Made by a program: the position numbers and the translations under genes. Under the pieces are notes generated by a model. It was given only the letters and a program-made list of their open reading frames with translations, ran no database searches and was not told where the DNA came from. This document shows, in pieces, positions 1 through 23,423 of a DNA stretch of 64,000 nt; the first letter of the stretch is position 1; the number at the start of each line of letters is the position of its first letter. Source of the DNA: Myrmaecium sp. VS I D KN 1. Lineage: Eukaryota > Ascomycota > Dothideomycetes > Valsariales > Valsariaceae. Where the stretch lies: positions 1 through 64,000 of the forward strand of contig JADQAV010000028.1 of the NCBI GenBank assembly GCA_019775845.1, read 5' to 3'.

Positions 1-28
1 AACCCTAACCCTAACCCTAACCCTAACC
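1..28. repeat. Telomere repeat (CCCTAA)n
   Basis: The first 28 bases are four and a half uninterrupted copies of AACCCT. Read on the top strand at the left edge this is the C-rich strand of a TTAGGG telomere, the usual type in filamentous ascomycetes, so position 1 is at or very near a true chromosome end. The array is short, probably because the assembly stops inside it. Confidence 0.95.
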
Positions 29-1015
29 AAAATTGGGACCTAACTCTATAATCTAGGACTAATAAGCAGCAGCAGCTACCGTATCTTAATACTATTCCCG
101 CAACGCTACTATTACTACGCGGACCTTTATAATTTATAACGGCAGGTGATTTCACATATCCGAGCGGACATGATCACACAGGGCACCTGATACTTAAGTT
201 ACGTTAGTAGCTGAGAACTTGCTCGGCAGGCTAGGAGGAGGGGAGGTTCAGGGATGTTATACAACGGGTGCTACCTTTGCATACTTGCGCACCCAGGGCA
301 AAGGGAAATTTTATCCTGAATCGAGAGAAAGACTCTGATCAGGAATATAATTCCCTTACCGGTAAAGATTCGCGTTAAGAGTAACTCCGCCATCTCCATC
401 GGACGCTGGAGAGTACTGATCGGGAGCAGAAAGAGCACTTGAGCGCCATCCGAATATACTGATCCAGCGGGGTGCGCGTTGTGATTTGGATTCCTCGTTC
501 CGTCACACCAGTGACAGTGCCTGATCGGCCGCTTGACGCAAGGCTCGCTACACAACATTGCGGGGTGCAGCGGAATATGCATACCAAATATGCATAAGAT
601 TGCTATACGAATCTGCGGGGAAACGCTTCGGACCATGAGGAACGAGTTACGAAGATGGATCTGCTCAGCTCAACCTGATCGGGTTGCGGCCGCGTATCTG
701 AAGTTCGCCTTTCCAACAATATCCTGCATCGGACTTCGACAAACCAATAACAACCGGTATTGGGGTGTGTCGAAAGCTCAGGTGCATCTTGCGCAAAGCT
801 ACTGTCTCGTCCAGAAAGAGTCATGGCAAGACAGGACGTGGAAGGGGCTGAAGCCTTGTGTTTTGCGCCTGACTTGCAACACCTCAGCTGGAGCTTCATC
901 GATGAATATAAAGAGCCACGAGTGCTTCCTCCTTCTCAAGTTTCCATAACCAGACGACCTTCCCCAACGTACCATCTTGAAAACTCATTATCAAGTCCTG
1001 AATCACGCAATCGAA
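29..1015. other. Subtelomeric gene-free region
   Basis: No gene is supported here. Positions about 29-200 are rich in TA steps (for example ctataatctagg and tataatttataac), unlike the GC-rich genes further in; this is the look of old, mutated repeat DNA, perhaps RIP-affected, but no element can be identified. The rest should carry the promoter of the gene starting at 1016. Confidence 0.5.
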
Positions 1016-3571
1016 ATGGAGCAAACTCGTCCTATTGCCGAACGTCCCATGCCAAAGGCCTCCGAGAGGAAGAACATCCTATGCGATGTTACTGTCAGCG
1101 ATGGCGCAACCCAGTACTATGGCACGTTGGACGTTACTAACATCCGTTATGAAGACGGTAGCGCGGTGGAGATTCAGCAGTATCTCGGTTTTGTCTTCGA
1201 AATTCCGCCGGTTACATCGGACGTCTCAGTCAGAACCGAACCGTGGCATGCCGTGACCTTGGAGGACCTCACGACCGTGCAAATCAACGCTACCACCTTC
1301 GGTGTTACAGCTGCAGTGAAGTACCCTGTTGGAGATCTTCCTTACACGTTTCGATCGAGCGATGTCATCAGGTGGGACATCAACGGCAATCTGCTGCAGG
1401 ACCCGGACACCTACACGCAATCTTTCCAGCTCTATTCAGATTATCTCCCGAGCGGCACGGTGGCAGTTGAAGTGCCTGCAGCACCCGATAAAACTCTCGA
1501 GGGTGTTCTTCAGACGGTCCGACTGACCACAGGCGGCAACGAGACAGTGCTCAGCGCTCCGCTCGGCGACACCACCGAGTTCACAGTCAGATTTGGCACC
1601 TACACCGTCCAGGCGGACGAGCTGGCAACTCCCAAAGACACCATCGTTGCGGACACGGAGGTCTCACCGGGCATGCTGGTGGTGGAGACTGATGAGACCG
1701 TCGCGATCACAGTGACGTACGGCTCCGTAAGCAAGTACACTGCGCTTGCTGTAACCATTGAAGACGTCATACCGAACTTTGACAGAGGGTTGATCCATGT
1801 TGTCCTCACCGACGAAGGGAGTGGAGATGTGCTAGCCGATTTTTTTACTTCCGAACAACGGACCACTCAGCTAACGCGCCTCTGTCCTCGAGTGTCCGCC
1901 TCTATCAATGCGAGTATCACTGTGAACAATAAGAAGTACACGGCCGTCAAATACCAAGATCTTCTGGAAGGGCAAGCTGAAGAGGTCACCTTCCAGGAGG
2001 GCGACTTCAAGGAGAAGGATGTAGACACGTCAGGTTTTGCTAAACTGCTTCTTGAGGTCGATAGTGAGAACGACTCCGAACGGACCATCAACCTACGCCT
2101 GAACTCTGGCGATGAAATCTTTTACACACAGGATATTGTTGCTACCGCTGGAACCACGCAGTTCGAGTTTCCAGTGGCTCCAGGCGACTACACGGTCACG
2201 ACCAGAGGCTTCATCGAAGATCTGAACGTCTACGCCGCCCAAACAGATCCAACAGTCACCCTGGAACAAGACGGCAGCACCAGCCTCCAGCTGAAGGTGC
2301 GGCGTGGCGCTAATCTCGCCGTCCATGGATTCGCTGAACAGCTGAGCTTCGGCGGCATCTCGAACCTGGCCGACCTCACCGGCAAGGACTTCATTGCCGC
2401 CCATGCTACGTCGGTCTTCAAGTATGCCGGGAATGACGGTGCCGGGGATCCAGACACTTACTTGGACAAAGATACTGCGACCTCCACCACGATTGCGCTG
2501 GCGCAGACGATCGAAGACGGAATCGGTGATGGCACCTCGGTGCTTCCCGTCCTCGTTTCCTACACGTGCAACCTCTCGCTCGGGGACGTTCCCACGCAAC
2601 TCCAGAACGCCGAGCGCCATGCGCACAGCTACGCAAATTATATCTTGTCGCTCCAGACAGCGAACGAGAACGGCAAGGAATCCGTCCCGGCAGGCTTTGT
2701 GGTCAACCCCGACTTCCTCGGCGAGACCCAGAAAAGCGCGTTCGGGATCGACTACAAGATGCCGGTGGTGGAGCCGCTCAAGACCGCCTTGAGTCACCAC
2801 GACCTCGACCTGACCGTCCCGGACAGCATCACCGACACGCTGGGCGGCTACGTCCTCTCGGTCAACTGGCTCACCCGGACCATCGCGCCCAATGTGACCT
2901 TTGGGTGGCAGGTGAACCTCTGGGGCGTCGGAATGAGTGAGTGGATCTACCCGGGGAATGACAGCTTCACACCGGTCGAGGCCGCCCAGAAGACGGCCCA
3001 GTACATCCAATCGCTGCAGGTGTACGAGGGCGACTACGCGCCCGACTTCCTCGCCATCGACCGGTACGAGGCGGACGACTTTACCAAGCGTGCGTACACC
3101 AACGGGTACTGCTACGGCCCGGCGGAGTGGGCGCGCTTCTTCGACTTCGTCGCCGAGCTCAGCCTCCAGCTCCGCGTGCCCGTCATGCCGTGGCAGATCC
3201 CCGCCAGCCGGATCCCGTCCGCCGGCGAGACGGTGCAGGACCTCGAGGCCGAGCAGTGGGGGAGTGGGGGCACCTACATCTTCGGGGACCCAGCCATCGG
3301 CACCGAGGTGTCCAACATCCATCCTAAGATCCTGGCGATTAAACCGTCCTCCTTGACCGGGGCCGCTACCGTGCGAGAGATCTTCGAGCGCGCCGAGCCG
3401 TTTGATTTGACGCTGCCAACGTTTGGGGACTTTCCCCTGCGCGGCATCTTCGCCGTGCTGTTGGGCGGAGGCGCGACGACGGGGATCATCCAGACGATTG
3501 GGACGACCGGGCCATGGACGCAGGAGAAGTTATCAGCGTATGCGGACGATCCAATTCCTTTCGAGGAGTGA
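1016..3571 (+). CDS. Large beta-rich protein with C-terminal TIM-barrel-like, possibly glycoside-hydrolase-type domain
   Basis: An uninterrupted 851-codon reading frame; the start is the first in-frame ATG (1016-1018), because the codon at the upstream edge of the open frame is TTG. Residues about 40-460 look like several beta-sandwich modules with alternating hydrophobic strands and Thr/Val/Asp-rich segments. Residues about 470-851 look like an alpha/beta barrel: a strand FVVNPDFLG near 561, FGWQVNLWG near 628, DFLAIDRYEADDF near 676 and MPWQIPASRIP near 724. Conserved Asp/Glu at strand ends is typical of carbohydrate-active barrels, and I recall similar bacterial proteins, but the family is not certain and no catalytic pair is assigned. 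There is no signal peptide or membrane segment. The lack of introns, where most neighbours have them, and the bacterial look suggest horizontal transfer; this is inference. It is the gene nearest the telomere. Confidence 0.8.
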   Translation: MEQTRPIAERPMPKASERKNILCDVTVSDGATQYYGTLDVTNIRYEDGSAVEIQQYLGFVFEIPPVTSDVSVRTEPWHAVTLEDLTTVQINATTFGVTAAVKYPVGDLPYTFRSSDVIRWDINGNLLQDPDTYTQSFQLYSDYLPSGTVAVEVPAAPDKTLEGVLQTVRLTTGGNETVLSAPLGDTTEFTVRFGTYTVQADELATPKDTIVADTEVSPGMLVVETDETVAITVTYGSVSKYTALAVTIEDVIPNFDRGLIHVVLTDEGSGDVLADFFTSEQRTTQLTRLCPRVSASINASITVNNKKYTAVKYQDLLEGQAEEVTFQEGDFKEKDVDTSGFAKLLLEVDSENDSERTINLRLNSGDEIFYTQDIVATAGTTQFEFPVAPGDYTVTTRGFIEDLNVYAAQTDPTVTLEQDGSTSLQLKVRRGANLAVHGFAEQLSFGGISNLADLTGKDFIAAHATSVFKYAGNDGAGDPDTYLDKDTATSTTIALAQTIEDGIGDGTSVLPVLVSYTCNLSLGDVPTQLQNAERHAHSYANYILSLQTANENGKESVPAGFVVNPDFLGETQKSAFGIDYKMPVVEPLKTALSHHDLDLTVPDSITDTLGGYVLSVNWLTRTIAPNVTFGWQVNLWGVGMSEWIYPGNDSFTPVEAAQKTAQYIQSLQVYEGDYAPDFLAIDRYEADDFTKRAYTNGYCYGPAEWARFFDFVAELSLQLRVPVMPWQIPASRIPSAGETVQDLEAEQWGSGGTYIFGDPAIGTEVSNIHPKILAIKPSSLTGAATVREIFERAEPFDLTLPTFGDFPLRGIFAVLLGGGATTGIIQTIGTTGPWTQEKLSAYADDPIPFEE

Positions 3572-8135: not shown

Positions 8136-9437
8136 ATGCTTAAGAATAAAAAGAATAAGAAGTGCAAGGAAACAACTGCGTCTCCGACATCCGTAGACGC
8201 AATACTGGCGAAGAAGGATCATGATATCGACCCGGCTGGAGATGTGTTCATCTATCTCCTCCGAGACGAACCTCCGCGGAGAGCACGTGGAGTACGAGGA
8301 GATCGTAATAGCACTTACTCGCGGTGTATCCCCCATGCCGAAGTCACCAGAATCTGCAGATCCCGCAAATGAAGAGGCCGTCCCAGAGGGAGAACGGCAC
8401 CTGCTGGTGAATATAATACCGATTCAGCGCCTGAAGACACCCAGCTCAATAAGGACAGCACCGATTCACCGGACAGCAAGCCCGCGCTCTCCAACGAAAC
8501 TGACGGTGAGCAAAGGACTTATATCAAGAAGCTTCGCGTCTCTTCCAAGCACCTCATCCTTCCAAGCATTTCCAGAGGATGTTCCGGCGAATTCGCTGAG
8601 GCCAAGGCACTACAAGGAGGAGAGACGGTCGAGCTCTTCTTAGACGACAACGCGACCGCCTTCCTCATCCTGGCCAATATCATCCACTGCCGCACCTCGT
8701 CAATCCCGCGGCAGGTGAGCCTTGAAATGCTCACCGAGCTCGCCGTGTTAGTCGACTACTACGGCTGCCACGAGGCGGTGGCCTTCTTCGCGGACCTCTG
8801 GATCGATCAGGCCATTGAGGAGCGAGCTATCCCGACGGAGCTGGGCAAGGATCTGATCCGGTGGATCTGTATCGCGCAAGTCTTCCAGAAGAAGGCGATA
8901 TTTCGAGAGGCAACGCAGGTCGCTCAGCGAAGGAGCAAAGGCGCCATACAGACCTTTGAGTTGCCCATCCCTGCAAGTGTGATTAGTAAGTCTTCCTTCA
9001 CCCAAGAAAAGGAGGAGAATGGCAGCCACATCCAACAGCTGCATGCGACGAACAACCGCTCACCTCCTCACTCAGAACAGATAGACGAAGACCGACAAAC
9101 TGCAGTAGGGGCCATCATCGCCCACCTTCGCAACCTCCTCCAGGACTTGCTCAATGAGGAGTGTTCTTCCACCTGCAGGGATGCTTTCAGCAACAGGCTC
9201 CGCCTAGGCACTCTGGTGAGCGCCATGCACCAGCTGGGCTGCCTCGATCCCCGTCCCACGTTTCCTTTCCTTGGCCTGAGCTTTACTGAGCTTGCAAATT
9301 CCGTGCGGCGGATTCGAACGCCTTCGCGCAGTGGATATTACTCGGATCAAGTATGTGAGGTAAATCCCTCGCTTCTTCCCAAGCTGGAAATATTTGATAG
9401 CAAACTGGGCGGGTTGGATCCTCCGAGCGTATCCTAG
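8136..9437 (+). CDS. BTB/POZ-type domain protein, reading frame uncertain or damaged
   Basis: Resembles the large fungal family of BTB-fold proteins of unknown role. The frame starting at 8136 opens with a Lys-rich stretch and KDHDIDPAGDVFIYLLRD, the usual beginning of the fold. The same frame, after one stop at 8370-8372, continues without interruption to 9437: an acidic Ser/Asp linker, KKLRVSSKHLIL, then GETVELFLDDNATAFLILAN, and LTELAVLVDYYGCHEAV, and ends with a GLDPPS-like tail usual for the family. Where relatives have a segment like SPVFQRMFSGEF, this gene reads PSISRGCSGEF; the neighbouring frame gives FQRMF, so two nearby compensating indels are likely. The stop could lie in a small intron (a donor GTAATA sits at 8305), but no good acceptor is visible. 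Either a mis-splice-called gene or a decaying one. Confidence 0.5.
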
Positions 9438-10418: not shown

Positions 10419-11991
10419 TCAAAACACTGCACTGCATCGCCCGCAGTACCCGCACCTCTCCGCCGAGCAAGCGGTATAATCCGGAATCTTATCCTCTTCA
10501 TCGATCTCCCACCCAAGCCGCACTCCTTCGCCAACATCATCAGACTCCTCCAGACTCTCACCAGCTTCGGATCCGCTCTCCGCCTTGTCGGCTTGAGAAC
10601 TCTTCTCCACTCTCCGAACCCACCTCTCCCTCCAGCTCTCGGACAAAGCACTGCCCACCTCGGGTCCAGACTCTCTAACCTCCAGCACGTCCGCCCGCTT
10701 ACACCTGAGCTCGAACAAGCCCTTATCCCCCCTCGCCCGGGCAAACGCCACGATCTTGCGCACCAGCACCGTCAACCTCTTGATCTGCGCCTTGTTCTCT
10801 CTCTCCCACTTTTGTACCCGCTCCCGCACGTCCTCATGCCGAATATCCTCGAACCGCCCCCAGTCGTGGTATCCAAGGACGAAGTGTGGGATCTGCCGAA
10901 CCCACAGCCGGGGCAGCTCTTCGGTCAGCGTGTCCTCTCCCGCGTCCCGCTTGCGGACCGAGCGAGTTTTGAGGTCGAAGACCGAGGTGCGTGGGACGGT
11001 GTGACCGCCGTGCACGATGCGGAGGGGCTGGTACGGGATCGGAGTGTCTTCTGCGGCAGCAGCTGCAGCAGAGTTGACGGAGCTCGCGCCTAGCAGGTCC
11101 GACAGCTCATCGACGGTCAGCTGCGCAGAAGACGGCGAAGTAGAGGGCTTCTCCTTCTCTGCAGCTGACGTCGCTGCAGCGCTTCCGCTGGCGTAGTACC
11201 CGTCCGCCTCGAAACGGACGACACACTGCAGGCCGCCAAGGGTATACTGGATGACGCGCTGGTGGGAGGTAGAGCCGCGGACAGCGGGCTCCCACATCGT
11301 GTAGGCCTCGGGGAAGGTATGGCCGAAGCCATACACGCCCTGCATCCGCTCGTCTGGTGTGTTTTCCCGCCGGATAAGGAAGACGGTGTCCCCGACCACG
11401 TCGACGAGCATGCGGAAGGGCTTGTCGACATGGCCGACAAAGCGGAGGAGATTGCCGAGGGTACTGCCGCAGCCGCACAGGTCGACGGTGGCGCTGGGAA
11501 AGCTGGGCTGCTGGGCGAAGATGGCTTGCACCGTCGGCTGCATCGGGTGCGCAGGGAAGCGTGCCGCGTTCAGGTCGCGGAAGTACTCCCCGCTGTCTTC
11601 GGAGAGCTGGCGGACATCGCGTGGAGGCGTCCAGACAGGCGGTGCACCTGTTGGTTGCGAGCGTAAGTAATGGATGTCGGGACGCAGCTCCTGAGTTCGA
11701 ATGAAGGGAGTGTCACATACCTGGCACGATGATCGTGGGCTCGCTTTTGTCAAGCCAGTTGAACGAGGCGACACCGGAGCAGGAGGAGATGGCCGCTGCT
11801 TCGTCTTCAACCGTGGACAAGTCTGTCAAGTCTTCATCTTTGATGGTGGTTAGGAGTTCACCGAGCGGAGGTGAGGGCGGGCGGTCGATCGATGGCTTTC
11901 GATCGGAGCCCCATGCAGTCCTACCGCGAAAGCCATACGCTCGTCCGCGGGCTCTTCCTCTCGTCGTGCGGGTACGTGAAGGCTGATACAT
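10419..11991 (-). CDS. 499-aa fungal protein with Cys-rich C-terminus, function unknown
   Basis: Two exons, 11991-11721 and 11647-10419, joined across a 73-bp GTATGT...CAG intron in phase 1; the splice makes VPGAPPVWTPP. Start is the ATG at 11991. The N-terminus is Arg-rich and disordered (residues 1-75), followed by SFNWLDKSEPTIIVPG and PVWTPP, a globular middle with LCGCGSTLGNLLRFV and VFLIRREN, a helical segment rich in Arg/Lys near 390-430, an acidic stretch, and the end PDYTACSAERCGYCGRCS. The combination of the NWL...PTI.VPG...WTP entry and the four-Cys tail marks a conserved ascomycete family that I recall being labelled geranylgeranyl pyrophosphate synthetase in some genomes; no DDxxD-type prenyl-synthase motif is seen here, so I do not accept that function. 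The Cys tail could bind a metal. It is divergent from the giant helicase/AAA gene. Confidence 0.85.
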
Positions 11992-12638: not shown

Positions 12639-15600
12639 ATGTCCACGCCGGACTCTGGTCGCACGGCACGCCTGAACAAGCTCTTCGCAACCTTTCTATA
12701 TGGTAAGCGTTCGATGAGGTCTCCCGCGGACGCCAAGCTGTACTTGGAGGCGATCTGTTCTCAAGCGAACGCCGTGAGCTGTGTCGAACGGCTGGTGGCC
12801 AGTCCTCCCGGGCTGTCCGCTCTGGAGCAGGGTTTGAGGTTCGATGTCTCCGCGGGCTTCATCAATCAACACACCACTCCCTTTCTCCGCTATCTGTCCG
12901 ATCCGGGGGTGAAGCAGGTATGTGGAGGCCAACATCTGCAACAGATCCTGCAGTCCGTCGCGAAGCCGCCGTCTCTTTGGAATGCTCTCCTGAGCGCCTT
13001 CAGGCAATACTCTCTCAACCAAGAATCTCTCAAGGCGTTCGCCTGGCTGGTCCTGGAACTACTTTCTCTCCCTCCAACGTGCGAGATCGACATCTCGGAC
13101 GACGCGCAAGCCATCCTGAGCCAGGGCACCTTGCAAAACGACTCTGACGAAACGACGAGGAACCGGGCTCGGAAGATCGAGCAGGTCGTCAACACAAAGG
13201 CCTTGATCATCCCACCGGACACAGAATTCTCTCCTGGCGGCCGGCACGACAATGACTTCGCCGACTTCCGCAAGATTTCCATCTATCCCACGGCCGCAGA
13301 GCTCCTCGCATCCGAGCGACCGTTCTACCGCCGCGCTATGGAGATCGGGGAGGCGCCGCTAGAGCAACGGGCGGCCATACACCTGGACAACCAGTACCGC
13401 TTACTGCGCGAAGACATGCTCGCCGAGATGCGCAACGACCTGCAGGTCGCCCAGGGGAGGAGGAAAGGACGTCGGTCCGCGGTCCTGCTGCACGGATTGC
13501 GCTTGCAGTCGATTGAATGCGGCGATAGCGACACGCAACGGTGGAAAACCTGTTCCTTGGGCGTGACCTGCGCCTATGGTCTTGCCCATTTCGCCGCGCT
13601 AGAACCAAAAGGCCGCAAGGACTTTCTGGCTAAGAACCGCTACTTCCTCAAACATGAGTCGTTCGGTTGCCTCCTGCACGACAGCGAGATCATCGCCTTC
13701 GCCTCCGTTGATCGCGACGAGGAGGCCTTGTGCCGGAAAGTTCCCGTGGTGATGTTGACGATCTGCGGGTCGGAGGCGCTGAAGAAGGCCTTATTGGCGT
13801 TGAAGCTATACAGCAATGTCCAATTTCTAGTGGTTGATACACCAGTCTTCGCCTACGAGCCGGTACTGCGCTGTCTCCAAGAGAAGGTGGATCTGCCTCT
13901 GGCCACGCAAATTCTAGACCCCAAATCTCCCTCCGCCCTGGAGAACGTTTCGCATCTCCCAGCAAGTTTCCTCCGTCGGTTGAAAAAAGCCACTAAAGAT
14001 AATATCAGCGCTGTGCTTGCAACGAAGAAGAAAATCATACTCGACGATTCCCAACTGGAATCCTTAATCGCTGGTCTGATGCAGAAGTTCAGCTTGATTC
14101 AAGGTCCACCAGGTAAGGCCGCGAAGCCTGTCGTTTTCCCTGGTCTTCAGGTCATCCCACTCATCTCTTTTAGGTACCGGAAAGTCCTTTCTCGGGGCGC
14201 TAATCGCTAAGGCTCTTTACGATGAGACATCCCTGAAGATCTTGGTCGTTTGTTACACCAATCATGCCCTTGACCAGTTCCTAGAGGACCTCTTGGACAT
14301 CGGTATACCGGCTGAAGCCATCGGGCGTCTTGGATCGAAAGCGAAGTGTACCCCGCGGACCGCACCGCTCTGTGTATCAGCACAGTCAGGGACCTATCGC
14401 CCTAACCGGTCCTCTTACGACGTAATCAATCACCTGAAATTCAGGGCGGCCTCAACCCAAAGTCAAATGGCACGGCATCTCAACTGGTATCATCGATTCC
14501 AGATCAGATGGCACGATATCATGGAACTTCTAGAGTTCTCGGATGAGGAGTCCGACTTCTATGAAGCCTTCACTGTCCCCGATGACGCCGATGGCATGGT
14601 GAGAGTGGGGAAGGACGGGCGGCCTGTGCATCCCGATTATCTGTTCAAAGCGTGGCAGCACAACATGGATGCAGGCATCTTCGAATGGGCAGTCCGTGAC
14701 GAGCACAGGTATATCTGGAATATGGCACCCGCGGCCAGACAGGCACTGATACAGAAGTGGGAAAAGCTGATTTTGGAGGACCGGATTGCGCAGTTGCATG
14801 GCTCAATCACGGAGATGGATGATCTGAGTGCGCGGCTAGTCAATATGTTCGGGGAGAAAAGCAGGCACATACTCCGAGAAAAGCGGATCATCGGCTGCAC
14901 TACCACTGGGGCTGCCAAATACGCTTCGGATTTGCAGGCTGCTTCACCGGAGGTTTTGCTGGTCGAGGAGGCTGGAGAAATCCTCGAGTCGCACATCCTG
15001 ACCGCCTTGTCGTCGAACACCCAGCAAATCATCCTTATCGGCGATCACAAGCAACTACGGCCCAAAGTGAACTCGTACGAACTCACGGTTGAAAAGGGCG
15101 AAGGGTTTGATTTAAATCGATCCCTTTTCGAGCGGCTGGTGTTAGCGGGCTATCCGCATACAATCTTGACAAAGCAACACCGGATGTGTCCGGAGATCTC
15201 GACATTGGTACGCAAGCTTACCTATCCGGAGCTTCTCGACGACGATAAGACAAAGCAGCGGCCTCCGATCCGCGGCCTGCAGGACCGTGTCATCTTTTTC
15301 AACCACGACAATCCCGAGCACGAGGTCAACGAAGTTGGCGATGCCCGAGATGGCGGCTCCAAATCCAGCAAGAAGAACGTCTTCGAGGCGGAGCTCGTCC
15401 TGAAAATTGTCAAATACCTTGCGCAGCAGGGATATGGAACGGACAGGTTGGTTGTGCTGACCCCGTATATCGGTCAGCTGTTTCTACTGAAGGAGAAGCT
15501 GAGCGAAGAGAACGATCCTGTACTGAATGACCTCGACTCGTACGATCTGATCCGGGCAGGGTTGGTGTCTCACGCCAGCGCACAGCTGACGAAACGCCCG

Positions 15601-18600
15601 ATCAGGCTCTCAACCATCGGTAGGTTTGGTCCTCTTTCTCAGCTCCACGGAATACGCTGACTCTCTAGACAATTACCAGGGCGAAGAGGCAGACATCGTG
15701 GTCGCCTCCTTGACGAGAAGCAATGAGCGCGGCGACATCGGATTCCTGGCGGCCCCTGAGCGGCTCAATGTGCTACTCTCACGAGCACGCGATGCACTCA
15801 TCATGATTGGCAATGCAGCGACATTCAGAGAGAGCAGGAAGGGTCAAAGCTCTTGGGTATCGTTGTTCGACCATCTTGTCGAGCACGGGCATCTCTACGA
15901 TGGACTTCCGGTCAAATGCGAACGGCATCATGAATGGAAGCGTGTTCTTCGGACTGCAAAAGATTTCGATACGGAGTGCCCTGATGGGGGATGCCCGCAG
16001 CCATGGTAAGTGTCCTGCCTTTTTGTTGGAGTTGAAACCGCTGACCCAGCCCTCTTCAGTGACACCCTTCTGAGCTGCAAGCTTCACAAGTGTCCTCAAC
16101 AATGTCACCAGCTGTTTGACCACTCCAAGATGCAGTGTAACAAGATCGTCGACACAACCTGCAGCCGTGGGCATCATCAGTTCCAGCCTTGCTGGAAGCT
16201 CAGCAAGGGTTGCAGGAAGTGTGCCGACGAGGATCGCGAACAGGAAAGGAAGCGCGAGCGGGATGCTAAATTGGAAGAGGAACGTGAACGGAAGCGCAAG
16301 GAATACGTCAGAGAGCTTGCCGAAATCCAAGCGGAGATGGACCATGAGCGCAGGATCGCCAAGGACCTCGCCGATGACCAACAAAGACTTACGACGATCA
16401 AGCAGAGCCGGATCGATCTCGAGAACATGCGGAGCGGGAGGCTACAACGGACTGCCGCGCAAACGAAGACCGCGGATGATTCTGCCACCGTGGATCAAAC
16501 CTCCGAAAGCGATCCGGTCTCTCCAGAGAAAACGGAAGCGTCGCAGAATGCCGCGACTGAAACCTGGACTTCCAGCGCAAATTCGGATTGGGAATACCAG
16601 AAGGAATTCGAGGGGGCCAAGAACGCGGCCTTGGACTCGTTGATGAAGATGATCGGTCTCGAAGAAGTCAAAGAGAAGTTTCTCAGCATCAAAGGCAAAG
16701 TCGACACGGCCATTCGGCAGAAGATCGACTGCCAGGACGAACGATTCGGTGCGGCGCTGCTTGGGAACCCAGGCACTGGAAAGACCACAGTCGCACGGCT
16801 GTACGCGCAGTTTCTGACATCCATCGGTGCGCTCCCCGGAAGCAAGTTCGTCGAAACCACTGGCTCTCGCCTCGCGAATGATGGCGTGTCCGGATGCAAG
16901 AAGATCATCGAAGGCCTTCTCAATGACGGCGGTGGAGCCCTCTTCATCGACGAGGCCTATCAACTAACCGGCACGAGCTATGGTGGAGGTGCAGTCCTCG
17001 ATTTCCTACTCGCCGAGATCGAGAACCTGAAAGGGAAAATCGTCTTCATTTTGGCGGGATACAACAAGCAGATGGAGAGCTTCTTTGCACATAATCCGGG
17101 TATCCCCAGCCGGTTCCCCATTGAGATGCAGTTCAAAGACTACACCGACGACGAGCTGCTGCGCATCTTCGTTCACACTCTGGAGAAAAAGTACAGAGGG
17201 CAGATGAAGGTGGAAGGAGGTCTGACCGGTTTGTACTCCCGTATCGTTGCCCGAAGGATCGGCCATGGCAGGGGCCGAGAAGGCTTTGGCAATGCTCGCG
17301 CTGTGGAAAACCGACGTGCAATGATTACAGAGCGCCAGGCGAGCCGGCTCTCGCAGGAGAGAAGGGTCGGTCAAAAGCCCGACGATTTCCTCCTTACGAA
17401 AGAGGATCTTCTCGGACCGGAACCGTCAAAGGCGCTCAAGGAGAGCGAGGAATGGAAGAAGCTTCAGGGCTTGATCGGCCTCAAAGCCGTGAAGGACTCC
17501 GTCAAAGCGCTGTTTGAGACGCTTCAGAGCAACTACCAGCGAGAGCTGGCGGAGAAACCAATCATTGAGTTCTCCCTCAACCGTGTCTTCCTTGGCCCAC
17601 CGGGAACGGGAAAGACGTCGGTGGCGAAGCTCTATGGTGCGATTCTGGCTTCTATGGGGCTTTTGTCGAATGGAGAAGGTAAGACAAATCTTCCATGCCC
17701 GCTGCACTTGCTGACGTGAATACTCCGCAGTTGTCGTCAAGAATCCTTCGGATTTCGTGGGCAGTGTCATGGGAGAATCCGAAAAGAACACAAAAGGGAT
17801 CCTGGCCGCAAGTGAGGGCAAAGTGCTCGTAATAGACGAGGCGTACGGACTGTCTGGCAACATCGCCGGCTCTGACTCCGGGGGAAGCTTCTCAGACCCC
17901 TACCGGACAGCAGTTGTGGACACCATTGTCGCCGAGGTCCAAAGCACGCCTGGGGAGAATCGCTGCGTGCTGCTTCTCGGCTACAAGGACGAGATGGAGA
18001 AGATGTTTCAACATGTCAATCCAGGCCTGAGCCGGCGATTTCCGCTTGACTCTGCCTTCGTGTTCGAGGACTTCACGGATGAGGAGCTGAGCGCCATCTT
18101 CGACCTCAAAGTTAAGCAGCAAGGACTGGAGGTGACGCACGAAGGCAAGAAAACGGCGATGGAGGTGCTGAGGCGTGCCCGCAACCGTCCAAATTTTGGC
18201 AATGCCGGCGAGATCGATATCCTGCTGGACAAGGCCAAAGCGAGCCAGCAAGCACGGTTCTCGTCAGGTGATCCCGCCAAACGATCTGATCAGCTGGAAC
18301 CGTGGGACTTTGACAAGGATTACGATCGTGGGAAACGGGCGGAGACCAATATTCGGATGCTGTTCGGCGATACCATCGGATGCGAGGGAATCGTTGAGCA
18401 ACTGGAGGGCTACCAAAGGACAGCTCGGAATGTGAAGGTGCTGGACATGGACCCACGAGATCACATCCCGTTCAACTTCCTCTTCCGAGGTCCCCCTGGT
18501 ATGTATAACCGAAGAACAGTTTAACGGTCTTTCTCACCCACTAACGCTTGACAGGAACGGGCAAGACAACTACGGCGAGAAAGACGGGCAAGGTGTACTA

Positions 18601-19840
18601 CGACATGGGCTTCCTGTCTACCGCCGAAGTGGTCGAGTGCTCTGCAACCAACCTCGTCGGACAGTATATCGGCCAGACGGGTCCAAAAACGCAGGCGCAG
18701 CTGGAAAAGGCGCTCGGGCGCGTCTTGTTCGTGGACGAAGCGTACCGCCTCGCCGACAGCGTGTTTGCAAAGGAAGCGATGGACGAGATCGTGGACTGCA
18801 TCACGAAGCCCAAGTTCGCCAAGAAACTCATCATCATCCTCGCCGGGTACGAAGGTGAGATCGACAAGTTGATGCAGACGAACCCCGGGCTGGCCAGTCG
18901 GTTCTCCGACTCCGTGAACTTCACCTCGCTCGCCCCGAAGGACTGTGTGAAACTGCTGACCACCCTGCTCCGGAAGCAGAAGCACAAATTGGCGCAGAAG
19001 TCGAAGACTCTCGACATCACCGACTTGGAAGCTCCATCCCCTGCCTTTGCCGCCGAGCTGGATCGAAGCTTCGGCACGCTCGCGCAGCTGCCGAACTGGG
19101 GAAACGCGCGGGACGTGGAAACGATTGGGCGGAATATCTTCGCGAAAGCGATCAGCTCTCAGCATCTGGAGATCGACGAGGAGATGATTCGCGCGGTCAT
19201 CGATCACACGATTGAAGAGCGGACCGAGAGAGCCAACGTCGAGAATCGTGCTCCTAACAACCTCTGGAATCCACTCCTACCTTCCGCACCGCCGCGCGGT
19301 CAGAACCCTTTCCAAGCCACTCATAATACAAAGCAAGGAAAAGGCGAAAAGAAGCAAGGAGCAACACCTGGAAAGCCGGACGCCCATTCCCATCCCCGCG
19401 ACGCGGGAGTCTCCGACGCCGACTGGCAGCATCTCCAGAAATGCGCCGCCGATGCCGCAGCACGCGAGGAAGCATACGCGAAGCTCGTCGCGAAAGAAAA
19501 GGCCCTGGAGCGCGCTCGCTTGGAAGCGCAGAAGCAGGAGGAAAAAGCGAAAGAGGAGGAACGCCAGAGACTTAAGGCGGCCGCCGATGACGAGGAGAGG
19601 CGAAGGGTGGAGGCGGAGCGGATCGCGCGCGAGCTCAAGCGCCGCGCCATCGAGGCGGAGCTCGAGCGGCTGCGGAAGGAGAGGGAGAAGGAGGAGGCGA
19701 GGAAGCGTGAGGAGGCGAAGGCGCAGCGGAAGTTGCAGGAGATGGGGGTGTGCTGTGCGGGATTCCGTTGGATCAAGGTGATTGGGGGATACAGGTGTGC
19801 TGGCGGGGCTCATTTTGTTCCGAACGAGCAGTTGAAGTAG
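12639..19840 (+). CDS. Giant SF1 helicase - NFX1 zinc region - triple CbxX-type AAA ATPase
   Basis: Six exons (12639-14112, 14174-15619, 15669-16005, 16060-17678, 17731-18498, 18555-19840) give 2309 aa with all phases consistent. Residues 1-480 are a helical N-terminal region. The SF1 helicase of UPF1/ZNFX1/Hrr1 type has Walker A GPPGTGKS near 492, Walker B VEEAGE near 755, KQHRMCPE near 824 and NVLLSRARD near 1005. A Cys/His-rich NFX1-type stretch follows (about 1080-1135, with LSCKLHKCPQQCH), then a charged coiled coil (about 1135-1215). Three CbxX/SpoVK-like AAA modules have Walker A at about 1322, 1598 and 1881, each with an IDEAY or VDEAY Walker B. A Glu/Arg/Lys coiled coil (about 2190-2280) and a short Cys-containing tail end the protein. 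Family knowledge points to RNA-related helicase work linked to ATP-driven remodelling; the actual substrate is unknown. Relatives with this order occur in other ascomycetes. All nucleotide-binding motifs look intact. Confidence 0.93.
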
Positions 19841-20491: not shown

Positions 20492-21571
20492 CTACAAAAA
20501 CCTCCTCCCCCCCTTCTCCCACTCAATCTGCTCCTTCCAACCCGGCGGGAACCTCTTTTCCCGCCTCTCCAAGCACAAACGCTGCATCTCAACCCTATAC
20601 TTCTCCTCCCTCACCTCACGCTCCACATCCTCCATCGTCAGGACACGTCCCCAATTGAAAACCCCCGCGCCGACACTCTCCCGATACAAGCAGCCGCGCA
20701 TCTCCACGCCGCTCGCGCCGCGGCGGCGCCAGTGCTCGGCCTCGGCCTGCGCGCGCACCCACTCCTCGTACCGCGCCTCGATGAACAGGGCGATCTGCTC
20801 GCCGTAGGTGAGGCCGATGGGCTCGCCGCGGACCTCGTCCCAGCGTTCCGGCGTGAGGGAGCGCGGGTCCATTCCCCGGGGCAAGGGGTGGGTGGCGCCG
20901 GTGACGGGGTCGTGGAGCTTGGTGAGCCCGGTGGTGGGGTCGGTGGTGAAGACGGGTTTGGCGGGGGCGCGGAATAGGGGCGCGGTAGCGGCTGCTGCGG
21001 TGGTGGCCCGAAGGTTCGGGGCAGCAGTGGGTGGAGGGTGTGGAGGTGCGGCTGATAGTTGGGTTACAGGGCTTTTGTTTTTTGGACCGGGTGTTGGCGG
21101 AGGTGGAGCGTGGAAGGTCGGCGGGGACTCGTTGAGACTGCCCGGGATCGTTCTCGCGACGGTTTTCTTGCTGCTGCCCGCTGCGGACCGCGGTCTGGCG
21201 TCGTTATTAGTCAAGAGGTCTTTTCCGGTCAGGAGGTCCTTGCTGGCAGTGAGGCTGCCGAGAATGACGGCGGTCGGAAGCCAGAGGAGCGCGCTGATGA
21301 ACTCGACGGAGACGAAGTAGACGCGGACGGTGAACATAAGCACCGGATGGAGGGTATGGCGGTACAGCCAGCGGATGAAGTCACGCAGGATGAGCGGGAG
21401 GAAAGGAATGAGAGCGCGTATGGCGGCGAACATGGGACCGATGTGGTTGGGCATGTCGACCATCGCGTCGTACTGGATGCGGTACTGCGCGATGCACAAC
21501 CGCAGGAGTTCGTGGGGGCCGATCCAAAGGACCAATATGAGGGCCCAGCTCATGAGCATCGGCAATATCAT
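20492..21571 (-). CDS. Fungal membrane-anchored protein of unknown function
   Basis: Single reading frame of 359 aa; the start is the ATG at 21571, because the codon at the upstream edge of the open frame is TTG. Residues 1-18 are hydrophobic (MILPMLMSWALILVLW), and two more hydrophobic stretches follow near 45-70 and 78-112 (FISALLWLPTAVILGSLTA), so the N-terminal third probably spans or lies along a membrane. Residues about 125-220 are a Pro/Ala/Thr-rich linker. The C-terminal third is charged and looks folded, with a GLTKLHDPVTG segment, Trp-rich helices and many Arg/Glu. I do not recognise a named family. No introns are apparent. It is transcribed in the same direction as the b5 reductase 1.9 kb upstream. 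Confidence 0.75.
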   Translation of the reverse strand: MILPMLMSWALILVLWIGPHELLRLCIAQYRIQYDAMVDMPNHIGPMFAAIRALIPFLPLILRDFIRWLYRHTLHPVLMFTVRVYFVSVEFISALLWLPTAVILGSLTASKDLLTGKDLLTNNDARPRSAAGSSKKTVARTIPGSLNESPPTFHAPPPPTPGPKNKSPVTQLSAAPPHPPPTAAPNLRATTAAAATAPLFRAPAKPVFTTDPTTGLTKLHDPVTGATHPLPRGMDPRSLTPERWDEVRGEPIGLTYGEQIALFIEARYEEWVRAQAEAEHWRRRGASGVEMRGCLYRESVGAGVFNWGRVLTMEDVEREVREEKYRVEMQRLCLERREKRFPPGWKEQIEWEKGGRRFL

Positions 21572-23423
21572 CTTGCTCGTCTGTCGGTTGAGTGTAATTG
21601 GGTGAAAGAGTTCCGTGTGATGTCGACGCGAACGAAGAGTCAACGGCTGTATAAGTGGTCGTGGAAGCGAAGGAAGTGTGTTCTGTATGTGTGCGTATGT
21701 CGAGAGTGTGTGGTTGTCGAGTCAATCCCGGGTTGCACTGTATCGACCGAAAGTCGCGAGAATCGTGCTTCTCAGTCGTGGGTGGTGAGGTGCGTGGAGA
21801 ATGTCGCGATACCAGAGGTGATGTGAAGTTGTTTGGAGTCAAACAAGCGAAGGACGGCGACGTTTTGTGGAGGCAGCGCGTCGAGGCTGATTACATAAAC
21901 TTCACGTATTGAGCGGTGTGCCAGTAGATATTGTCGTTGTTGTGTGTGTGTGCAGGGCTTTCGCATGTGAAGGTGTAGGTACTATGTTGGTTGTGACCGT
22001 CAGCCCGTTCTTTCGTTTGTGCCTGCGCAGGCAGATCGAGTGCTTCACCGCTTTCTACCCAAGCAAACGGAGCGCTGAGAACACTCGAGTCAGAGCTTTC
22101 CCTCGTCAAAAGCTGTGACGGCGAAGAGCTCCCTTGGTCCTCAGCCTGTTTAGGTTCTTTTTGTGATCAGCTTCCTTCAGTCCGTCCATGAAGCGCGACG
22201 AAGGACGACAAATTGAGACAAAACCAACGCAAAATCCGTCGTCGTCCTCCCTACCTGAGCTACCTTTCCGCAAAGCCGTTCCCACGGTTCGAACCGTGGC
22301 TTCTTTCGAGCCTCGACACGACAGAGGAGACAGAGGCAGGTTAGTATCAGTATGGACCTCAAACATCCAACACCAATAAAGCAACATGCCAGCATCACCA
22401 CACCGCGCGCCATCAGTCACCGCATCGCGTCCCCGCTCTTCCCTACGCATCAACAAACCCGTCCAGACCACATGACCAGAGAAGAAAGGCTCTGTTTACA
22501 GTCACTTACCCGGCCACAGCGATCACACGCGCGCTCACAATCGGCTTTGTCTTCAACCGCCGGTAGCCAGGCACCCACATGCCCATCTTAGTCGCGTTCG
22601 CGACACGTTGGCCTAGGCGCTCGCCCTGCACAGGGTAGAAAGCGCTTCGGCTCCGTAATATTAACCTCCTCGTTAAGAGACATATTTAGAGAAGGAGAAG
22701 AAGGAAGCAGAAGGAAAGAGAGGAGAAGACCAAAAACAAAAGCAAGCCACTCAACATCATCCATATTCATCTGCTTGACGACGAAGTAAAGCAAGGCATG
22801 CGTACGTGACGGAACCGTAACAATGTGGAGTCTGCACATCTTTCTCTCATCCGCTGAAACGGAAAAGCGACGAGACAACTTGGAGATAAAGAAGGAGGAG
22901 TTGAAGGAGGAGGGTAGGAAAAAGGACGGAAAGAATAGCGACGTGTTAAGAATCGATTGAAATCAGAGGATGAATGGTATAGTTATATCAGACAATACAG
23001 GGGGAGGAGGATGAGAAGTGGAGGAAAGCACTATACATATGCACATGAATAGGAAAAAGGGAAAAGGAGACATGGGACCTCGATAACTTACACAGCTTCA
23101 AATCATGCATCTTCAGCTTCAGTGGTTGACGGGAATCTGTTTGATCCCTTCCAGTCGTGAGAAAACGAATGGGAAAAGAAAGAATGAGGGGAAAGGAAAG
23201 GAAAAACTTGGCGATCTCGTGAACCTAATCCCGACACCTTTCCTACCTGACCATAAAGAGCCCGATCTGTCTGTCTATTCTACATTCTCCATCATCCGAT
23301 GACGAATCTCTCAACTCTAAGCATACTACAACTCTCTTTCTATCACAACAAGCATCAATCAAGTAAACAAGCAAGCGAGAAAACCCCCAAATCCAATCCC
23401 ATCCAACACACCGTCATACCCAC
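21572..23423. other. Intergenic region with one possible orphan exon
   Basis: No complete gene is supported. Minus-strand 22625-22510 has a coding-like segment (GERLGQRVANATKMGMWVPG) followed exactly by a GTAAGT donor and preceded by a CAG acceptor; I could not join it to a convincing next exon. A perfect 18-bp palindrome lies at 22282-22299. Purine-rich low-complexity DNA covers about 22680-22740 and 22860-22930. Confidence 0.35.

Follow-up and report, generated by a model that had tools for sequence, protein, structure and literature searches.

A subtelomeric gene of Myrmaecium sp. VS I D KN 1 encodes one protein with a ZNFX1-class SF1 helicase and three CbxX-type AAA modules

The window analysed here is a stretch of 64,000 nucleotides at the start of a contig (JADQAV010000028.1, C19 in our searches) of the ascomycete Myrmaecium sp. 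VS I D KN 1, the genome of which was searched as 25.7 Mb in 66 contigs. A single gene at 12639-19840 of the forward strand, with its ATG at 12639 and its TAG at 19838-19840, was found to encode a superfamily 1 (SF1) helicase followed by three AAA modules of the CbxX type in one chain of 2309 amino acids. Its six exons (12639-14112, 14174-15619, 15669-16005, 16060-17678, 17731-18498 and 18555-19840) are in frame at every join, and introns 1 to 5, of 61, 49, 54, 52 and 56 nt, respectively, all follow GT...AG, the splice sites having been placed from the DNA alone. An earlier, sequence-only reading of this DNA had proposed this gene with five introns, and its coordinates proved exact to the base. 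The features of the gene, all on the + strand, are as follows.

12639..19840, +, whole gene, six exons (open frames and exon joining)
13230..13799, +, ZNFX1-class block before the helicase, residues 198-387, RHDND..PT..E / YRLLRED (phmmer and profile)
14040..15838, +, SF1 helicase core, residues 468-1030, exons 1-3 (Pfam AAA_11/AAA_12, PDB phmmer)
14113..14173, +, intron 1, within the helicase Walker A motif (read from the sequence)
15620..15668, +, intron 2 (read from the sequence)
15839..16237, +, Cys/His-rich region, ZNFX1-like, residues 1031-1145 (alignment to 9q9z)
16006..16059, +, intron 3, splits the Cys/His-rich region (read from the sequence)
16229..16597, +, charged linker, residues 1143-1265, E/R/K-rich in 1143-1225 (composition)
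16640..17383, +, AAA module 1 (AAA1), residues 1280-1527, bounds from a profile that included the window modules (Pfam, NCBIfam, AlphaFold model)
17462..18284, +, AAA module 2 (AAA2), residues 1554-1810, sensor-2 Arg replaced by Gly (Pfam, NCBIfam, motif alignment)
17679..17730, +, intron 4, within AAA module 2 (read from the sequence)
18363..19195, +, AAA module 3 (AAA3), residues 1837-2095, aromatic pore loop YIGQT kept (Pfam, NCBIfam, motif alignment)
18499..18554, +, intron 5, within the AAA3 Walker A motif (read from the sequence)
19418..19750, +, second charged stretch, residues 2170-2280, E/A/R/K-rich (composition)
19751..19837, +, Cys/Gly/His tail, residues 2281-2309, CCAGFRWIKVIGGYRCAGGAHF... 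(Pfam scan and genome search)

When the whole chain was compared with Pfam, AAA_11 (5e-31), AAA_12 (7e-41) and AAA (4.8e-41) were matched, and four Walker A motifs were found at residues 489, 1321, 1598 and 1879. Helicase and AAA folds were recovered both with Pfam and with phmmer against PDB, and on these comparisons the homology of both halves is far beyond chance. A stop-to-stop frame at 16010-17719, which covers the whole of exon 4, takes in half of the zinc region (its second half) and continues through the linker and AAA1 into AAA2. As no stop separates the zinc region from AAA1 in this frame, the helicase and AAA parts form one protein independently of splicing. The gene is real and the observation of its architecture is correct. 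The Walker A motifs of the helicase and of AAA3 are complete after splicing only. Introns 1 and 5 cut these two different motifs at an identical codon position (between GPPG and TGK), both in phase 1; this perhaps reflects a splice-prone sequence common to both rather than common descent.

The helicase core contains the strings GPPGTGKS (489-496), VEEAGE, GDHKQLRP, DNYQGEE and NVLLSRAR, which we take to be motifs I, II, III, V and VI, respectively. With a query of 871 amino acids, the best PDB match by phmmer was human ZNFX1 (9q9z; E 8.1e-87, 295.5 bits), compared to E 5.4e-31 and 110.8 bits for UPF1 and 62.1 bits for SEN1 (5mzn). By sequence comparison the core is nearer to ZNFX1 than to UPF1 or SEN1, which is consistent with the ZNFX1/UPF1-like helicase described earlier; identity with UPF1 was rejected on these scores. 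The block at residues 198-387 matched 9q9z with E 1.6e-5 from the window sequence alone and with E 2.5e-18 from a profile that included both genomic paralogues, and the alignment to a complete SF1 helicase of the ZNFX1 class extends over residues ~150-1145. Pfam domain PF25396 (ZNFX1) gave no match in residues 150-470 at E<=5, a scan that is effectively stricter than this cut-off as HMMER filters discard most matches above E about 0.1, and its genome-wide search found only a paralogue on contig C38 (L021). Because the curated domain fails to match the gene, the window protein is a diverged member of the ZNFX1 class. Residues 1-150, where an ARM-type region would be looked for in a protein of this class, had no Pfam match and no ZNFX1 match in any comparison. 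Residues 31-269 weakly matched the second paralogue, L020 (E 1.2e-9), and a single-sequence fold model of residues 1-490 reached a mean predicted local distance difference test (pLDDT) of 38.

The NFX1 zinc region of the sequence-only reading was borne out in part. When the Cys/His-rich segment was compared alone, it aligned (E 0.0027) with residues 1330-1431 of 9q9z, from the zinc region of the human protein. The curated zf-NF-X1 profile (PF01422) matched neither the segment at E<=5 nor the gene at E<=10 in the whole-genome search. That search gave six matches, all in one other frame on contig C5; since L020 and L021 were missed as well, the lack of a match carries little weight.

Two other identities were considered for the helicase half and rejected. 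The helicase exon matched the model of the anti-phage protein MkoA (8.9e-32). No PLD, which we take to be the effector part of Mokosh MkoA, was present among the best 25 of 30 Pfam families of the whole chain, the remainder ranking below E 0.07, or in the segment scans. For a STAND/NLR sensor, the best stretches, nSTAND3 (482-514) and NPHP3_N (467-525), turned out to be the helicase P-loop.

In the AAA half, modules 1, 2 and 3 scored singly matched Pfam AAA with 1.6e-11, 1.3e-10 and 1.7e-13, respectively, and AAA_lid_6 exceeded its cut-off in modules 1 and 2 but fell short of it in module 3 (15.5 vs 24.3 bits). The top three NCBIfam families for every module were SpoVK, CbbX and EccA, modules 2 and 3 having been entered as single-exon pieces. 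The modules gave at most 137 bits against equivalog cut-offs of 423-467 bits, and identity with SpoVK, CbbX or EccA proper was rejected. By phmmer against PDB the AAA half matched CbbX 3zuh (E 2.2e-31). AAA1 was modelled with AlphaFold (mean pLDDT 68.8) from an alignment with five additional rows, of which one was bacterial; the four PDB chains that matched the model best were all CbbX (E 1.4e-15 to 1.6e-14), with the following match at 4.6e-7, so that structure prediction pointed to the same clade. A weak PADLOC match to TRIP13 was obtained for AAA1 (2.5e-4) and none for AAA2 or AAA3. When the AAA1 model was compared with BFVD, the best viral matches were giant-virus proteins, some of them named stage V sporulation protein K; judged from this model, CbxX-clade relatives seem to occur in giant viruses.

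The four P-loop engines had been described as intact, and this stood for the Walker motifs but not for every motif around them. Walker A and Walker B (DEAY) are intact in all three AAA modules. The stretch YIGHT of CbbX and SpoVK, which we take to be the pore loop, is YIGQT in AAA3, VMGES in AAA2 and lost in AAA1. The sensor-2 arginine, the second arginine finger of the clade, is kept in two of three modules (GNAR in AAA1 and AAA3) and replaced in AAA2 (GNAG). Sensor-1 GY, a criterion of PMC10659427, is present in all three and invariant compared to one CbbX and one SpoVK. All three also have the NPG...R arginine motif, for which our own count gave another spacing than the four residues of the available text of PMC10659427. 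AAA3 is complete at every motif examined. AAA1 was 31% identical to AAA2, 25% to AAA3, 33% to CbbX and 27% to SpoVK; on these figures, the three modules probably diverged long ago. In the module tree the window modules lie on long branches and form one clade in the best tree. With support of only 41/65 for this clade, the phylogeny establishes neither that the modules were triplicated inside the protein nor that they arose separately.

Two further ZNFX1-class helicases were found in the genome, L020 on contig C22 and L021 on contig C38, with no match to CbxX modules in either frame by Pfam or by the cassette search. L020 is a stop-to-stop frame of 1438 amino acids with 382 bits to ZNFX1, and L021 one of 1179 amino acids with 443 bits and a Pfam ZNFX1 domain at 6e-31; these bit scores come from whole frames, compared to the 871-aa query of the window protein. 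L020 has an N-terminal CCCH finger and, of the helicase paralogues found, stands closest to the window gene. Because window residues 151-1142 align along residues 308-1312 of L020 (29.5% identity, E 6e-108), a near-complete L020-like protein precedes the AAA cassette. In a seven-row helicase tree, the window helicase grouped with L020 and L021 (rows L003/L004), apart from L005, L009 and L012, with support 100/100; a very long row, L006, also fell within this group, and L005 and L009 look like UPF1 and SEN1. On sequence, L021 is the nearest ZNFX1 relative found in the genome and the best candidate for an orthologue of SAD-3, Hrr1 and ZNFX1. No second CbxX set was found, the cassette search having given three matches, all in the window gene (six candidates scored, E<=0.01). 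A separate genome search with Pfam AAA scored 19 of 79 candidates and says nothing on copy number because the window gene itself was unlisted. Piwi matches were obtained at four genome sites, one with in-frame stops, and RNA-dependent RNA polymerase (RdRP) matches at four, two with in-frame stops. Since the search runs across introns, such stops need not mean broken genes. With both kinds of match, RNA silencing machinery is probably present; a silencing role deduced from genome content was rejected as an argument, as these matches permit it and do not prove it.

A eukaryotic SF1 RNA helicase located N-terminally to an AAA+ domain of the SpoVK/CbbX/EccA clade is already in print (Delerue et al. 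2023, PMC10659427; this and the other papers cited by PMC number are represented by partial text), and the legend of its architecture figure includes 'ZnBd: zinc-binding'. The window protein shares with the members of that SF1-helicase clade the SF-1 RNA helicase domain ahead of a clade AAA+ and is another member of this described eukaryotic architecture, which is without a characterised function. In contrast, the number of modules and the motif losses seen here are absent from the available text on those members (PMC10659427), and the losses in AAA1 and AAA2 are an added detail over the described architecture. In agreement with the earlier statement that no function had been worked out, a literature search with narrow terms found none for any fungal SpoVK/CbxX-helicase protein.

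The helicase core, the preceding block and the zinc region of human ZNFX1 align with the window protein. Unlike the window protein, human ZNFX1, C. elegans ZNFX-1, S. pombe Hrr1 and N. crassa SAD-3 carry no CbxX modules that the available text mentions. CbbX, SpoVK and EccA have in common with the window modules the module fold, the Walker motifs, sensor-1 GY and NPG...R, but the compared CbbX and SpoVK proteins contain one module each, whereas three unequal modules follow the helicase here. Bacterial tandem CbxX proteins (two from Streptomyces and those of Calothrix, Pontibacillus and Ligilactobacillus plasmids) resemble the window protein in having tandem modules behind another N-terminal part; they have two modules each and are annotated, where annotated, as beta-helix protein or AAA ATPase. 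One of them, L023 from a Streptomyces plasmid (annotated beta-helix), adjoins an S8 peptidase and eccCa, a setting that would be in keeping with a function like that of EccA in type VII secretion. A scan of prokaryotes for the triple cassette matched 27 stretches, the only relative encoded among them being a single-module protein from Clostridia; the patterns were short and the test is weak. Among viral contigs, at least three loci matched the module alignment (at least 600 stretches) and none the helicase exon (14 stretches). Plasmid records matched the cassette in 268 cases and the helicase exon in 8. Because these two lists were not compared in full, the absence of a bacterial helicase-CbxX fusion is not established.

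In N. crassa, NCU09357 is annotated as both SpoVK and helicase, the two kinds of part joined in the window protein, with its domain order deduced from these labels, and is likely to be the orthologue of the window gene, as judged by annotations rather than by alignment. It is named stage V sporulation protein K and described as a gene expressed late in conidiation under the control of ADA-6, with reduced expression in the ada-6 mutant (PMC6468284; repeated in PMC11708020). It is also the first N. crassa BLAST match of RnhA, the SAD-3-like helicase of Mucor, and is given together with NCU05861 as a possible SAD-3 paralogue (PMC5384783). In a further study, NCU09357 was listed as an ATPase/DNA-RNA helicase among rapidly evolving sex-associated genes, with a ratio of nonsynonymous to synonymous substitution (dN/dS) above the mean on the N. 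intermedia branch only (PMC3571971). SAD-3, NCU05861 and NCU09357 equal in number the three ZNFX1-class helicases found here. The helicase-zinc-CbxX order, given in the sequence-only reading as conserved in other ascomycetes, gains support because NCU09357 carries both annotations. In Exophiala dermatitidis, the SpoVK-family AAA ATPase HMPREF1120_08154 was among the genes most induced by particle irradiation, with an average log2 change of apparently 6.20 in a table row shared by two genes (PMC7835796).

The other features of the locus include a telomere repeat at the contig start, as listed here.

3..26, +, telomere repeat (CCCTAA)x4, contig start (repeat search)

These four repeats place the gene ~12.6 kb from the chromosome end, in agreement with the telomere-proximal position assigned to it before. 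Twenty of 31 selected stop-to-stop open reading frames (ORFs) outside the gene were scanned with Pfam at E<=0.01, and nine had matches: six enzymes or peptidases (serine carboxypeptidase, NAD/FAD oxidoreductase, M28 peptidase, GFO/IDH oxidoreductase, ETF-ubiquinone oxidoreductase and ATP-grasp/CoA-ligase) and three domains of unknown function. The other 11, including the four nearest long ORFs (950-3568, 8373-9434, 10422-11825 and 20495-21721), matched nothing. No defence family was found among the 20, and the defence role that had been suggested from the position near the telomere gained nothing from the neighbours; with 11 frames matching nothing, the nearest four long ones among them, defence genes may still lie there. 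The frame at 950-3568 (+) is open for 873 amino acids ~0.9 kb from the telomere, and no second copy of it was found in the genome (E<=0.001). Within the gene, the linker at residues 1143-1265 is possibly a coiled coil, as its composition suggests. The C-terminal tail (CCAGF...GGYRCAGGAH), with no Pfam match in residues 2281-2309 and one copy found in the genome, is by its residues possibly a small zinc-binding end. It was rejected as an RZ finger, the RZ-type profile (PF20173) having no genome match at E<=10.

By analogy with the relatives of its two halves, a ZNFX1-class helicase with a C-terminal three-module SpoVK/CbbX/EccA motor may be an RNA-recruited dedicated chaperone that acts on a ribonucleoprotein, a reading to which we give an even chance. 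The helicase half would hold its RNA target, either double-stranded RNA or RNA targeted by small RNAs, the kinds reported for ZNFX1 and ZNFX-1 (Hrr1 acts together with an RdRP), and would replace the usual N-terminal domain as the substrate recruiter. ATP hydrolysis by the CbxX cassette, chiefly via the AAA3 pore, would then remodel or activate one dedicated protein of the ribonucleoprotein, the natural candidate being an RdRP or Argonaute complex, and AAA1 and AAA2 would serve mostly as regulatory parts that build the ring. In the SpoVK/CbbX/EccA clade, those members that have been characterised act as dedicated chaperones; no partner protease was found for them, and substrate recruitment is ascribed to their N-terminal domains (PMC10659427). 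ZNFX-1 interacts with small-RNA-targeted transcripts (PMC9276528), mammalian ZNFX1 is described as a sensor of double-stranded RNA (dsRNA) viruses (PMC11574294, PMC11959080) and has also been proposed to influence how stable host mRNA is (PMC11959080), and SAD-3, Hrr1 and ZNFX-1 act in silencing (PMC5384783, PMC9276528). The coupling of RNA recognition to protein remodelling, put forward in the sequence-only reading, fits this published biology of both halves as a prediction by analogy. Paralogy speaks for silencing, the expression of NCU09357 speaks for developmental control of mRNA, and the case for defence is weak.

Several points weigh against such a chaperone, or against silencing as its field. 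RNA binding, ATPase activity and the partner of the fused protein are sequence-based predictions only. Because L021 is the closer relative of ZNFX1, the classical silencing role may fall to L021 and a different one to the fused protein. The late-conidiation and sex-associated profile of NCU09357 does not single out silencing (PMC6468284, PMC3571971), and two of the three AAA modules have lost motifs, AAA1 and AAA2 in the pore loop and AAA2 also at sensor-2.

A different field of action, possible though rather unlikely, would be a machine for developmental RNA control in conidiation or early sexual growth, with no tie to small RNA, in which the cassette would disassemble stored or condensed messenger ribonucleoproteins. 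It would agree with the late expression of NCU09357 and its reduction in the ada-6 mutant (PMC6468284), with the place of this gene among rapidly evolving sex-associated genes (PMC3571971) and with the proposed effect of ZNFX1 on mRNA stability (PMC11959080), but the orthology of NCU09357 is one of annotation, not alignment, expression timing is weak evidence of mechanism, and the nearest characterised relatives, SAD-3, Hrr1 and ZNFX-1, act in silencing (PMC5384783, PMC9276528). It is unlikely that the protein is an antiviral or non-self sensor in which recognition of dsRNA triggers the cassette as effector. The viral dsRNA sensing described for mammalian ZNFX1 (PMC11574294, PMC11959080), the match of the helicase exon to MkoA and the subtelomeric position would be in keeping with it; in contrast, the scanned neighbours yielded no defence family, no effector or death domain was found, the nSTAND3 and NPHP3_N stretches being the helicase P-loop, and a literature search tying NFX1 upregulation to mycovirus found nothing.

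Even less probable is that the CbxX modules are worn-down scaffolding and the helicase works alone: the missing aromatic pore loop in AAA1 and AAA2, the missing sensor-2 arginine in AAA2 and the long branches of all three modules are of this kind, but Walker A, Walker B DEAY, sensor-1 GY and NPG...R are kept in all three, and AAA3 is complete. That the model joins two adjacent genes is hardly credible, since, although the introns are known from reading the sequence only, one open frame runs from the zinc region through AAA1 into AAA2, the same architecture is in print for eukaryotes (PMC10659427) and NCU09357 bears both annotations.

As for the RNA-recruited chaperone, it is speculation whether its ring would be built as 2 x 3 modules or as stacked hexamers. 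It is a long shot that two chains close a six-module ring (2 x 3) with pore loops in the two AAA3 modules only, which would make an RNA-gated threader that strips RdRP or Argonaute from helicase-held RNA. If true, this would be a way to end or reset silencing complexes, of which no description was met in the literature. The unequal wear of the modules leads to the concrete prediction that AAA3 would be the working pore. Little is known of the biochemistry of ZNFX1, an immune gene in humans, and the natural fusion described here suggests that helicases of this type act together with protein remodelling.

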